A stretch of DNA of 64,000 nucleotides from Actinomycetota bacterium. GTDB lineage: Bacteria; Actinomycetota; Thermoleophilia; RBG-16-64-13. The notes under the pieces are model-generated. The model was given only the letters and a program-made list of their open reading frames with translations, did not search any database and was not told the DNA's origin. Of this stretch, positions 14,848 through 25,856 are shown piece by piece; positions within the stretch are counted from its first letter, which is position 1, and the number at the start of each line of letters is the position of its first letter. The stretch covers positions 124,001 to 188,000 of the forward strand of contig JADQBG010000009.1 of NCBI GenBank assembly GCA_016278725.1. Reading direction: 5' to 3'. The position numbers were made by a program, and so were the translations under genes.

Positions 14848-15810
14848 GTGACGGACCAGGCGCGTGGCAATCGGGAAGTCATCTTGCGCCTCTTCGAGAT
14901 GATCAATACCGGCAGCATAGAGGACATAGACGAGGTGCAGGACGAGGATGTGCTGACCCTGCACCCGCAGACACGGGAACGCGTACGGGGGCGGGAGGAA
15001 TACAAAGTTATGGCCCGCGGGTTCCAGCAGCTCGGAGGACTCAGGGTAAGCGAGACCGAGAGGGAGTTCATCGGAGGGGAGGAGGAACGTTACCTGCTCA
15101 CTCCCCTCTTCACGATGGTAAAGATTCAGGGCACCGGAGAGACCCTCGTCGTGACCTCGAAGAATCATTATCCCGACGGATCGGACTGGTACACGATCGG
15201 TCTCGTCACGTTCCGCAGGGGCAAGATCCTGAAGCAGGTGCTCTTTTTCGGGCCGACATTCGATCCCCCCGATTGGCGGGCTCAGTGGGTCGAACCCCTG
15301 GAGAGCCGGAGTGGTGTTCATGTGGAGCAGCGCGGGACTGCAGCACCGAGGGTTTCCAACCAAGTCAATCGGGACGCAGCGACACGCCTATTCGCGCTCA
15401 TGGATCTGGGCGAGTACTCGCATCTCGACGAGGTCTTCCGGACGGAGGTCGTGACCGAGTATCCGCAATCCGGTGAACTCGTGAGGGGCCTCGAGAACCT
15501 GAGGAACGTTATGAGCCACTATCCGGGCGGGCACCCGCGGGTGAGCCCGGAGGAACGCGTGTTCGTGGGCGACCGCGGAGAACATCGCTTACCCAGCCCC
15601 ACCGACTCCATTCTCAGGATCCACGATGCCGGTGACCGGCTGGTCTCGAGCATCAAGACCCGCTATCCCGACGGTTCCGACTGGTACACGGTCTCGGTCT
15701 TTTCCTTCTTGGAAGGCAAGATCTCCAAGCAGATCGTGTACTTCGCCCCGGTAATGCCGGCGCCGGAGTGGCGGAGCCAGTGGGTGGTGGCGGATATCGG
15801 GGAGTATTGA
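14848..15810 (+). CDS. Double NTF2/SnoaL-like protein, copy 1
   Basis: 320 residues built from two tandem NTF2-fold (SnoaL_like) domains: each half runs R-x-x-x-x-R-L-F-x-M-M/D, E-Y-P/H-P-Q, then Y-P-D-G-S-D-W-Y (residues 108-115 and 273-280), then a strand of the form G-K-I-x-K-Q-x-x-x-F and a P-x-W-R-x-Q-W tail. Such folds act as small-molecule isomerases, hydrolases or binding proteins; no catalytic residue can be assigned. The GTG is preceded by TTGGAGG. It is a close paralogue of the gene at 20229. Confidence 0.75.
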   Translation: MTDQARGNREVILRLFEMINTGSIEDIDEVQDEDVLTLHPQTRERVRGREEYKVMARGFQQLGGLRVSETEREFIGGEEERYLLTPLFTMVKIQGTGETLVVTSKNHYPDGSDWYTIGLVTFRRGKILKQVLFFGPTFDPPDWRAQWVEPLESRSGVHVEQRGTAAPRVSNQVNRDAATRLFALMDLGEYSHLDEVFRTEVVTEYPQSGELVRGLENLRNVMSHYPGGHPRVSPEERVFVGDRGEHRLPSPTDSILRIHDAGDRLVSSIKTRYPDGSDWYTVSVFSFLEGKISKQIVYFAPVMPAPEWRSQWVVADIGEY

Positions 15811-19719: not shown

Positions 19720-20226
19720 ATGAACGCGACCCAGTTTCTGATAGGCGTATCCGGCGCCCTGGTGGGCGTCATCGGGTGGCTGTTTGTCGGCCTGTACATA
19801 CAGAGACGGGCCCACAATATGCAGGCGCGAGACGCCGGCCGAGCCGTCTATTTCGAGTTGAGCGCGAACAGATTGGCCGTATTCATCGCCGCACAGTACG
19901 CTGTGTTCGGGGAGCTCAACCGTTCGACCTACGAACGCCTGTTGCCGGAGCTCGCGACGTGGCTTCCTGCCGCGGAACTGCAGGCGTTGGTCCTCGCCTA
20001 CCTTGGGCACGGCGGATATCAACAGGCGGCGAGTGACAGCGAAGTGCCGCAGAACGTCAGGCATGCCGCCCTCTCCGGCATCCTTGACGCGCATCGAGTG
20101 GCCTTGGATCTGCTGCGTCCGCGAGTGTTCTCCAAGAAGGAGATCGAATCGCTGAATAGGTATGCGGGCTCTGAGTACGTTCGCATGATCGAAGCTGCAG
20201 ACGCGGCAGAGCGCGTAGGAGGTTGA
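19720..20226 (+). CDS. Membrane-anchored protein of unknown function
   Basis: 168 residues: one N-terminal hydrophobic helix (FLIGVSGALVGVIGWLFVGL) followed by a soluble alpha-helical domain rich in Ala, Leu and Arg. I do not recognise the family. The ATG at 19720 is preceded by CGAGG at 9 nt; an earlier ATG at 19696 lies inside the duplicated leader. The stop is 2 nt before the next ATG, so it is co-translated with SnoaL-like copy 2, unlike copy 1, which lacks this gene. Confidence 0.6.
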   Translation: MNATQFLIGVSGALVGVIGWLFVGLYIQRRAHNMQARDAGRAVYFELSANRLAVFIAAQYAVFGELNRSTYERLLPELATWLPAAELQALVLAYLGHGGYQQAASDSEVPQNVRHAALSGILDAHRVALDLLRPRVFSKKEIESLNRYAGSEYVRMIEAADAAERVGG

Positions 20227-20228
20227 CC

Positions 20229-21191
20229 ATGACGGACCAGACGGGTGGCAAACGGGACGTCATCTTGCGTTTCTTCGAGATGATGAATACCGGCAACATA
20301 GAGAATCTAGACGAGGTATACGACGAGGACATGCTGACCGTGCATCCCCAGACACGGGAACGCATCCAGGGTCTGGAGGCCCACCGAGTCTTGGCTCGCG
20401 GGTTTCAGGAGCTGGGAGGTATCGACATCCCCACGGAAGAGACAGAGTTCCTCGGAGATGATGAGGAACGCTATCTGCTCACACCGCTCTTTACGATGGT
20501 AAAGATCCAGGGCACCGGAGAGACGCTCGTGGTGACCGCGAAGATGCGGTATCCCGACGGCTCGGATTGGTACAACATCGGTCTGACCACGTTCCGCAAG
20601 GGCAAGCTGCTGAAGCGGGTGCTGTTCTTCACGCCGACATTCGATCCCCCTGACTGGCGGGCTGAATGGATCGAGCCTCTGGAAGGCAGGAGAGGGGTCC
20701 ACGTGGAGTACCGTGGGACTCAAGCACCGGGGGGTGCCAACCAAGTCAACCGAGATGCAGCGGCACTCCTGCCCGAACTCGTGGACACGGGAGACTACGA
20801 CCGGCTCGGCGAAGTCTTCGATAGGGAAGTCGTGACCGAGTATCCCCAATCCGGCGAACTCATCAGAGGCCTCGAAAATCTGAGGAATGTCATGAGCCAC
20901 TATCCGGGCGGCCACCCCCGGGTGAGCCCGGATGAACGGCTGATAGTGGGTGACCGCGGCGAGCATCGCTTCCCCACTCCGGCCGACTCGACCCTCAAAA
21001 TCCACGATGCGGGCGACCGCCTGCTCACCAGCATCAAAACCCTCTATCCGGATGGTTCTGACTGGTATACGGTTTCGGTCTTTGTCTTCTCCGAGGGCAA
21101 GATCTCGAGGCAGGTGGTGTACTTCGCCCCGGTCATGCCGGTGCCGGAGTGGCGGGCGCAGTGGGTGGTGGCGGATATCGGCGAGTATTGA
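20229..21191 (+). CDS. Double NTF2/SnoaL-like protein, copy 2
   Basis: 320 residues, colinear with the protein at 14848 throughout and highly similar, including both Y-P-D-G-S-D-W-Y motifs and the ending V-V-A-D-I-G-E-Y. Start ATG at 20229 with TAGGAGG upstream. The two paralogues lie 5.4 kb apart on the same strand. The conserved double-domain layout suggests the two halves form one pseudo-dimer with a shared cavity (inference). Confidence 0.78.
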   Translation: MTDQTGGKRDVILRFFEMMNTGNIENLDEVYDEDMLTVHPQTRERIQGLEAHRVLARGFQELGGIDIPTEETEFLGDDEERYLLTPLFTMVKIQGTGETLVVTAKMRYPDGSDWYNIGLTTFRKGKLLKRVLFFTPTFDPPDWRAEWIEPLEGRRGVHVEYRGTQAPGGANQVNRDAAALLPELVDTGDYDRLGEVFDREVVTEYPQSGELIRGLENLRNVMSHYPGGHPRVSPDERLIVGDRGEHRFPTPADSTLKIHDAGDRLLTSIKTLYPDGSDWYTVSVFVFSEGKISRQVVYFAPVMPVPEWRAQWVVADIGEY

Positions 21192-23464: not shown

Positions 23465-24625
23465 TCAGACAGTGGCCAGCTTATCCTCGACCACTCGATG
23501 CGCCCTTACAAACTTGCTCAGGATGAACAGGTAGATGAGGATCGCTAGGTACACGCTGATGTAGTTGAGGGCCGATATCCCGGTGAACTGGACGAAGAAC
23601 CCGTAGACGTACACTCCCAAGACCTGGGAGCCGACGAAGGCTCACACGAAACCCCACTGGGAGGGGGCGAAGGCCGTCTTGGAAAACTCCGTCCTCAGGT
23701 AGTCCCGCACCACGTACACCGCCGCCACTCCCCAGCCAATCGCCAGGGCGTAGGAACCGGTTATAAGCAGAGACGTCGACCCGGGAACGTCCAACGCGAC
23801 CTGAGGCTGCACGTACTCGGCCACCCGGTAGGCGCCCAGTCCCAGCAGGCAGGAGATGGGAACCACCAAGAAAAAGCCCGGCAGAATGGGATTGGGGGGT
23901 AACTCCCGCGCCTTGATATGCGTGTAGAGCAAGAACCCCAACTTGGCGACCAACATTAGGACGCCGATCACCAGGGCAAAAACCGTTCCCACGGCGGCGA
24001 TGCCGGCTACCGTGTCGTTTTCGGCCATGGAAGTGATCCCGGAGCCGGTGAGCGTCACCAGGCCGAAGGCGAAGACGTCCAGCAGCCAGATGAAGTTGAA
24101 CTGGGTGAGGTCGACGCCTTCCGAGAACCAGGTCCGGCCGACCGTGACTTCGAGGAAGACGAGAACCGCCAGGAGCACGCCGAAGATGATCAGCGAGGGA
24201 AGCATGAACGCCTGCATGTGCGCGCTCATTTGCGGCACGAAGAAGCCGAAGGGCGCCCAGAAGACGTTCACCGTCATGGCGAGGGAAGCCACGATGGCGA
24301 AGATCCCCGCGTTCTGATTCTTGTGGGGATTGTTAACGAAGGCCCGGTAGGCCCCGCGCTCTGTGAGCCACCCCCACAGCCGCCCGAGAAAGTACACCGT
24401 GAGCGCGAAGTTGATGAGGGTAAAGGCGAGCATTATGGCCACGAGGGGCAGGTAGAGGGCGCTCTCGGCGCCGGAAAGCGTTCCCCAGCTCACGTTGGAG
24501 AGCGTGATCAGACCCTCGCTGTGGGGGATGCCAAACTGCAGGTAGTTGAAGGCCATGAGCGCGATGCCGCCCGCGGCCAGGGAGGACTGGAACAGCAACG
24601 GGTGAAACGGGATCCGCAGTTTCAC
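23465..24625 (-). CDS. Putative membrane selenoprotein, TsoY-like; in-frame TGA at codon 328
   Basis: Read straight through, the frame gives 386 residues: about ten hydrophobic helices starting HPLLFQSSLAAGGIALMAF, then S-Q-W-G-F-V, a TGA at 23642-23644, and 58 more residues (AFVGSQVLGVYVYGFFVQF ... VVEDKLATV) that form two further clean helices and a basic/acidic tail before TGA at 23465. No start codon or ribosome-binding site precedes the second part. A SECIS-like hairpin with GGUCU loop follows the TGA. From memory, an NCBI family called TsoY (seleno)protein fits; its function is unclear, probably a membrane component of sulfur/selenium redox chemistry. The GTG start has AGGAGG inside the end of the preceding gene. 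Confidence 0.78.
23614..23630 (-). promoter_or_regulatory. Predicted bacterial SECIS element for the TsoY-like TGA
   Basis: On the minus strand CTCCCA pairs with TGGGAG (6 bp, perfect), closing a 5-nt GGTCT loop. The loop starts 18 nt after the TGA. E. coli fdhF, from memory, has GGUCU in its SECIS loop at almost the same distance. Confidence 0.75.
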
Positions 24626-24627
24626 TG

Positions 24628-25500
24628 TTAGCCCTCCTTGATCCCGCTGTAGACGGATTTACAGGTGGGCGAGCTCTTGCCGGTTTTGGCGGCCTCGGCC
24701 GCTGCCGGAGTGGCGTGCTCCGTGCCCCCGAGGCGCTGGGCGTACGCCTCGGCGTCCAGTAGCTGGTCCTTCCACCCCTCCGTCGCCTGAATCTTGACCA
24801 GCCAGGTCTCATGCGGATTCTCGTTGACCGCCGCCGCGGTGGCCTCGGGGTTGGCTTTCAGCGCCTTCCCGGCGATTGGGCTGAGGAAGTACTTCATGTT
24901 CTTCTTGGTCGTGGCGAAGGCGATCTCTTGGTCGACGACCAGGTCCTCGCCCACCTCGGGAAAGACTTCGAGGTCGATGAGGCCGCCCATAAGGGCCACC
25001 CCCGGCTCAGATACACCGACTACTACGGCGTCTTCGTCGGCGCCCGCCTCGCTCTTCACCCAGTACTGGCGCGCCCCGTCGTAGAGCCGGTCGCCCGGCA
25101 GGTCGAAGTCCTTCCCCAAAAAGCCCTCGAGTTTCGCCATGCTCTCCCCCTTGTCGTGCTCTCTCCACCTCGCGGCGAGCCCGTCTCCCGTTTGCAACTG
25201 TTCGCGTAGCACCTCGCGCAGAAGGTCGCAGGCCTGGACCATCTTCGGATAGGCCACGCGGTAGTAGATCTCGTTGCCGTCCCGGCGTGTGCGCACCAGG
25301 CCCAGGTGCCTCAGTACGGCGAGGTGCTGGGAAACTAGTGGTTGCCTGGTTCCCACCATCTCGGAGAGGTCATTAACCCTGCGCTCGCCCTCGCTTAGAA
25401 CCTTCATCAGCTCGACGCGCAGGGGATGGGCAAGGGTTTTGCACACCTCGGCGTGCATCTCGTAGAGTCTCGGGTCGATAGGGTGACCCCGCTCGGCCAT
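24628..25500 (-). CDS. ArsR-type HTH fused to GcvH-like (lipoate carrier) domain, with a nested start
   Basis: 290 residues. Positions 15-95 are an ArsR winged helix (KTLAHPLRVELMKVL; RQPLVSQHLAVLRHLGLV; DGNEIYYRV). Positions 121-245 resemble glycine-cleavage H protein or sulfur-oxidation LbpA: DLEVFPEVGEDLVVDQEIAF, with Lys200 in ATTKKNMKYFLSP aligning with the lipoylated lysine. There is no stop between the parts, but an in-frame ATG at 25138-25140 is preceded by AAGGGGGAG, so a free 170-residue carrier is probably made too. The ATG at 25500 overlaps nothing and lies 2 nt after the DsrE-like stop. I infer it regulates this operon and/or senses its redox state. Confidence 0.8.
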   Translation of the reverse strand: MAERGHPIDPRLYEMHAEVCKTLAHPLRVELMKVLSEGERRVNDLSEMVGTRQPLVSQHLAVLRHLGLVRTRRDGNEIYYRVAYPKMVQACDLLREVLREQLQTGDGLAARWREHDKGESMAKLEGFLGKDFDLPGDRLYDGARQYWVKSEAGADEDAVVVGVSEPGVALMGGLIDLEVFPEVGEDLVVDQEIAFATTKKNMKYFLSPIAGKALKANPEATAAAVNENPHETWLVKIQATEGWKDQLLDAEAYAQRLGGTEHATPAAAEAAKTGKSSPTCKSVYSGIKEG

Positions 25501-25502
25501 CG

Positions 25503-25856
25503 TTAGTAGACCACCACCTTGTCCGCCTCCATCGTCCACTCAGCGAGTAGATCCATGGATCCGCGAACGGTACCGTCGATCATCGCGTGGGACGCCAGAC
25601 CACGGGCGTCCATGCAGCTACCTCACAACCCCACCGCGGCCCTTTTGGCCATGAGGCCCTTCAGCATGCGCTCCGCCGAGTAGTAGCCCTCGGGTGGCGC
25701 TTGGCCCGCCAAGGCGCAGGCCGTGGCGTCCGCCGTCAGGAAGACCTTCACCTGTGCGTCATCCTGCTTGGCCACCGCGAGCGCATGGCGCAGGGCGTTG
25801 TAGGAGCGCTCAGATCCGTAGGGTGCGTCGTTCAGCACAAAAAGCACTGATCCCAT
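25503..25856 (-). CDS. Putative DsrE-family selenoprotein; in-frame TGA at codon 78 (U-G-S-C)
   Basis: Read through the TGA at 25623-25625 the frame gives a full-length 117-residue DsrE/DsrF-like protein: M-G-S-V-L-F-V-L-N-D-A-P-Y-G, E-G-Y-Y-S-A-E-R-M-L-K-G-L, then U-G-S-C-M-D-A-R-G-L and finally S-M-D-L-L-A-E-W-T-M-E-A-D-K-V-V-V-Y, stop TAA. In ordinary family members the segment reads C-G-T/S-C-M-D-A-R-G, so the TGA sits exactly at the first Cys of the redox pair. A hairpin with GGUCU loop follows. DsrE proteins carry persulfide sulfur on Cys; here Sec would be the reactive atom. It is first gene of the operon. Confidence 0.82.
25590..25611 (-). promoter_or_regulatory. Predicted bacterial SECIS element for the DsrE-like TGA
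   Basis: On the minus strand GGACGCC pairs with GGCGTCC (7 bp, perfect) around the 8-nt loop CGTGGTCT. The stem starts 12 nt after the TGA codon. The GGTCT in the loop is shared with the TsoY-like hairpin. Confidence 0.78.

Follow-up and report, generated by a model that had tools for sequence, protein, structure and literature searches.

A 64,000-nt stretch of an Actinomycetota genome, hereafter the window, contains a tsoY gene that probably encodes a selenoprotein with the fold of SLAC1-type pores, in which a selenocysteine (Sec) residue occupies the gate and which participates, together with the products of its operon, in the transport of sulfur or selenium anions. The parts of this reading differ in strength. 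That tsoY is a genuine selenoprotein gene, with UGA codon 328 read as Sec, is well supported computationally by comparison with its relatives; the placement of Sec328 in transmembrane helix 9 (TM9), where TehA and SLAC1 carry the gate Phe that blocks their pore, is supported by profile alignments; and what TsoY transports, and in which direction, are guesses made from the neighbouring genes.

A tsoY gene with an in-frame UGA codon

The gene, its Sec codon and the candidate Sec insertion element are located as follows.

23465–24625, minus strand: tsoY, 386 aa, with Sec at residue 328, a predicted ten-helix SLAC1-fold membrane protein
23642–23644, minus strand: TGA Sec codon of tsoY (residue 328), placed by homologue alignment
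23613–23631, minus strand: SECIS hairpin of tsoY, GCTCCCA-GGTCT-TGGGAGT, whose loop begins 17 nt past the TGA

The open reading frame starts with GTG at 24625 on the minus strand and is preceded by AAGGAGG. As the first-pass annotation had claimed, the same frame continues past the TGA at codon 328, here for 58 more codons (329–386) up to a TGA stop at 23467–23465. The strand was absent from that claim, and a plus-strand reading of 23465–24625 was dropped on account of in-frame stops. The name TsoY given in the first-pass annotation turned out to be right, because the read-through product exceeds the cut-offs of two NCBIfam models over nearly its whole length, scoring 519.3 bits against the equivalog NF047643 seleno_TsoY (cut-off 250; protein residues 7–372 on profile positions 2–366 of 366) and 319.8 bits against NF047644, 'TsoY family (seleno)protein' (cut-off 150). 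The family-site motif of the window protein is U328-AFV, its first residue lying in the column that holds the TGA of the homologues, and the motif UxxV is listed for TsoY in a table of a review (PMC13188914) that cites Haft and Tolstoy 2025. Going by that table, the family was named earlier, and what is new here is this member gene.

Searching bacterial and archaeal genomes yielded 15 relatives, further family searches added more, and the viral contigs searched contained none. In the first alignment, codon 328 is TGA in 13 of 14 sequences and TGC in the remaining one, from Trichococcus. The enlarged alignment holds 24 TsoY sequences (18–93% identity), with TGA at this codon in 16 full-length sequences, the window's own included, Cys in eight and neither TAA nor TAG in any of the 24. 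The Cys forms that the first-pass annotation had proposed looking for thus exist, and homologues ending at this place were not encountered: all 24 relatives read on, as Sec or Cys forms, through TM9 and TM10. The column of residue 328 is one of nine invariant columns among the 24 sequences, and the VGSQVLG segment that follows the TGA is among the best-conserved stretches of the Sec-type proteins. The tree places the Cys form of Trichococcus inside the Sec forms, and a distant subfamily consists entirely of Cys forms. One member of this Cys subfamily (G393; L057/L062) has a TGA at codon 328 in a frameshifted gene, in a genome without SelB, and is probably decaying. Recoding of UGA as Trp is excluded, since the aligned relatives carry Cys and never Trp at position 328, and is also disfavoured by the genes of the window, which terminate at TGA or TAA as usual. 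The distribution of TsoY is patchy, with matches over the cut-off in 4 of 61 near genomes and none in 75 further genomes from the same family as Trichococcus.

Sec machinery and the SECIS hairpin

The Sec machinery, on which the first-pass reading depends, is present in the window's genome, which is 99.65% complete. It encodes SelB (642 aa), a tRNA-Sec (74.9 bits) and SelD (401 bits, on another contig than tsoY), all three identified with curated models, and SelA, which was called from the sequence of the open reading frame adjoining selB and not from a model. This SelD is of the Sec type, its own gene carrying an in-frame TGA where the active site is encoded (HGSG-U-ACK). Together, SelA, SelB, tRNA-Sec and SelD would decode UGA 328 as Sec with the help of the hairpin just downstream. 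SelB also scores over the cut-off in all but two of the genomes behind the first TsoY relatives. Neither SelB nor tRNA-Sec was found over the cut-off in the Trichococcus genome that carries the Cys form, or in a fragmented Desulfovibrio metagenome-assembled genome (MAG) with a Sec tsoY (L033, G071), where the relevant piece is likely missing from the assembly. The tsoY gene of this MAG has the TGA and a strong hairpin. In the distant subfamily, every genome with an intact Cys-type tsoY gene (L047–L054 and L063) also encodes SelB, so that Cys at position 328 does not simply reflect the loss of Sec use.

The 6-bp hairpin with a GGTCT loop reported by the first-pass annotation is found downstream of the TGA as CTCCCA-GGTCT-TGGGAG, and the interval 23613–23631 includes one additional G-U pair. 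Bacterial SECIS elements are described as having an apical loop of 3–9 nt with a G in the first two loop positions, located 16–37 nt from the UGA, and an MFE of at most −7.5 (PMC13188914); the tsoY hairpin satisfies these rules with its GGTCT loop, its distance of 17 nt and its MFE of −15.3 to −20.9 kcal/mol. Rfam models at gathering scores gave no match within the window. All seven base pairs are retained in each of the 13 aligned Sec tsoY genes, as compared to four of seven in the Trichococcus Cys homologue. Stem substitutions among the Sec genes comprise one exchange of C-G to U-A and several U-G swaps, so that covariation taken alone is modest, with a single change on both sides. The stem shares nucleotides with the conserved VGSQVLG codons; as a control for this, synonymous codons were shuffled using each gene's own usage. 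Such shuffles yield all seven pairs in only 1.5–7% of cases per Sec gene, while the four pairs of the Trichococcus gene are no better than chance (P 0.87). This comparison between the Sec genes and the Trichococcus Cys gene is the cleanest internal control.

A TGA followed by a hairpin is by itself weak evidence, because a loose screen for an open frame plus hairpin retains 19 in-frame TGAs in the window; there are 17 other such places in the window, and two of them were translated, neither giving a protein-like sequence. We regard the selenoprotein call for tsoY as secure because of the homology, the exchange of Cys and Sec and the conservation of the hairpin. It is very improbable that UGA 328 is an ordinary stop ending a 327-residue protein, with the downstream frame a remnant or due to chance: TGA is a standard stop, with which tsoY itself ends, and the loose screen passes many such codons, but the Sec or Cys residue in all 24 aligned relatives, the continuation through TM9–TM10, the conservation of VGSQVLG, and the hairpin, which the Sec genes retain and the Cys gene of Trichococcus has lost, argue against it.

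Predicted fold and the gate position

A structural model of TsoY, predicted from 24 sequences, has a pLDDT of 86.9 and a pTM of 0.88. The model places codon 328 just within helix 321–343 (TM9), which is followed by helix 348–385 (TM10). The first-pass annotation had placed two membrane helices after the TGA; two helices do come, the Sec residue itself being predicted to lie inside the first. It had also described the segment as lacking a start codon, while in-frame TTG336 and GTG338 exist, on which nothing hinges. In a search of solved structures, SLAH1, SLAH3, SLAC1 and TehA stand alone with Z scores of 27–33 over 295–318 residues, the next match being an unrelated designed barrel (Z 16.7), and an earlier, poorer model of TsoY led to the same SLAC1/TehA family. 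By sequence, a TsoY profile found no match among PDB chains. The Pfam family SLAC1 (PF03595) matches the tsoY product with 29.8 bits (gathering cut-off 27.9) and the Trichococcus protein with 37.8 bits, and does not match a distant member of the Cys subfamily (L047). The profile match and the predicted fold together support the assignment of TsoY as a ten-helix pore protein of the SLAC1/TDT fold, which it would share with TehA, SLAC1 and the SLAH proteins at about 8–15% identity.

The pores of TehA and SLAC1 are blocked by a Phe residue on TM9, F262 of TehA being equivalent to F450 of SLAC1 (PMC10645844). To locate this residue in TsoY, the 24 TsoY sequences were compared with 20 SLAC1-family proteins plus E. 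coli TehA, the TehA numbering being confirmed on the PDB sequence 3m71. In the hhalign alignment of the two family profiles (probability about 80%), W324-GFV-U328-A of TsoY falls on W258-SFS-F262-G of TehA. Residue 328 was placed on F262 in 59 of 60 runs that subsampled both families, and in all five MAFFT modes. The gate column accordingly holds Cys or Sec in 24/24 TsoY sequences and Phe in 21/21 SLAC1-family proteins. Family profiles had to be used for the gate alignment, since the comparison with the single E. coli TehA sequence fails, hhalign detecting no similarity and giving no usable alignment. As the motif of the Cys-subfamily proteins is mostly ICP, the Phe-Pro of SLAC1 (F450-P451) would correspond to their Cys-Pro. 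Since the gate Phe on TM9 is absent, TsoY appears to be a divergent branch and not a canonical SLAC1 channel. In the limited literature searched, neither a description of a TsoY Sec residue at the SLAC1/TehA gate nor a SLAC1-type protein treated as a selenoprotein was found.

The tsoY operon and the putative function of TsoY

tsoY is the third gene of a tight operon, in which a gene for a DsrE-like selenoprotein comes first and ends 2 nt upstream of a gene for an ArsR-GcvH-like fusion protein, which in turn ends 2 nt upstream of tsoY.

25503–25856, minus strand: DsrE-like selenoprotein gene, 117 aa (Pfam DsrE, 75.3 bits), with a UGSC motif and Sec at residue 78
25623–25625, minus strand: TGA Sec codon of the DsrE-like gene (codon 78), placed by homologue alignment
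25590–25611, minus strand: SECIS-like hairpin belonging to the DsrE-like gene, GGACGCC-CGTGGTCT-GGCGTCC, suitably spaced from the TGA
24628–25500, minus strand: ArsR-type HTH fused to a GcvH-like domain, 290 aa (Pfam HTH_5 and GCV_H above cut-off)

The TGA of the DsrE-like gene aligns with TGA in two homologues (L021 and L030) and with Cys in two others (L026 and L027). The first-pass annotation had called TsoY the second selenoprotein of this stretch, which fits with this DsrE-like UxxC selenoprotein gene two genes upstream. Selenoproteins of the DsrE-like UxxC kind were already known in 2005 (PMC1088965); the window's gene has the UxxC motif and the DsrE family in common with them and differs in sharing an operon with TsoY and the ArsR-GcvH-like fusion. 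The fusion protein scores 94.7 bits against the GcvH-related model NF045810, which is below the cut-off of 150. It also occurs in one close relative (L021/L036; about 90% identity), but no such fusion was detected next to tsoY in the following genus (L022/L103). Compared with the NF047643 family, the window's operon may differ in having the fusion and the DsrE-like selenoprotein directly upstream of tsoY. In other genomes, tsoY is found near dsrE, ArsR, selD, selenium-linked LysR, ArsR-rhodanese and CGGC-domain genes, and in two genomes a Cys-subfamily tsoY adjoins a rhodanese or sulfide:quinone-reductase-like gene. Elsewhere in the window, the plus strand encodes, about 5 kb apart, a pair of similar proteins (14848–15810 and 20223–21191), each about 320 residues long and seemingly made up of two related halves.

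The literature searched yielded no stated function for TsoY. We hypothesize that TsoY acts as a pore for, or a transporter of, a small anion of sulfur or selenium, such as sulfide, sulfite, thiosulfate or a selenide-like species, and that its gate selenolate binds, or reversibly reacts with, the species that passes or is sensed, in which case flux through TsoY would depend on the redox or persulfide state. TsoY would partner with the DsrE-like selenoprotein as a sulfur carrier, with the GcvH-like (lipoyl-type) domain and with the ArsR-type regulator, and may feed or relieve this DsrE/GcvH-like carrier system under ArsR control. The more specific proposal of a selenolate-gated anion pore, in which the Phe plug has been replaced by Sec or Cys and opening or transport proceeds through reversible Se–S chemistry with sulfur species, is tentative, and we put it at roughly one chance in three.

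A redox enzyme that has retained the fold and a selenium-supply channel are real alternatives to a sulfur-anion pore. The first, which we consider unlikely, holds that TsoY is a membrane enzyme acting on thiols, selenols or quinones, in which the SLAC1 fold is non-conducting and the Sec residue catalytic, not a gate. Known selenoproteins are mostly redox proteins (PMC13188914), the operon contains sulfur-carrier types (DsrE and GcvH-like), and the replacement of Phe by Sec brings chemistry rather than bulk. However, the closest folds among solved structures belong to channels or transporters, TsoY has no recognised cofactor domain, and among the 24 sequences there is no second Cys that is invariant across the entire family, although Cys259 is invariant within the Sec-type branch.

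The second, to which we give marginally less credence, is that TsoY conducts selenide or selenite, feeding or protecting the SelD pathway through selenium supply or export, and does not act on sulfur. In several Bacillales and in one Peptococcaceae genome, selD lies just upstream of tsoY, with a selenium-linked LysR gene accompanying tsoY/selD in the Bacillales, and the presence of SelB in the Cys-subfamily genomes points the same way. YedE, compared here by description only, offers an earlier example of a sulfur-type transporter linked to the use of selenium and is, like TsoY, a ten-helix membrane protein, with an invariant Cys that has been proposed to be functional (PMC5322559), but the two are separate protein families and YedE has Cys, not Sec. 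Against a dedicated selenium channel, the neighbours in the window are of the sulfur type (DsrE, GcvH and ArsR), with selD located elsewhere, and the Trichococcus form persists without detectable Sec machinery.

Implications for the TsoY family

Sec usually sits in enzyme active sites. If the selenolate-gated pore proposed for TsoY is true, an active-site selenocysteine would here act as the gate of a channel, and Sec at a channel gate would widen the roles known for this residue. Locating the Sec at the gate of a channel fold for which structures and gate mutants are available would also make an orphan selenoprotein experimentally tractable.
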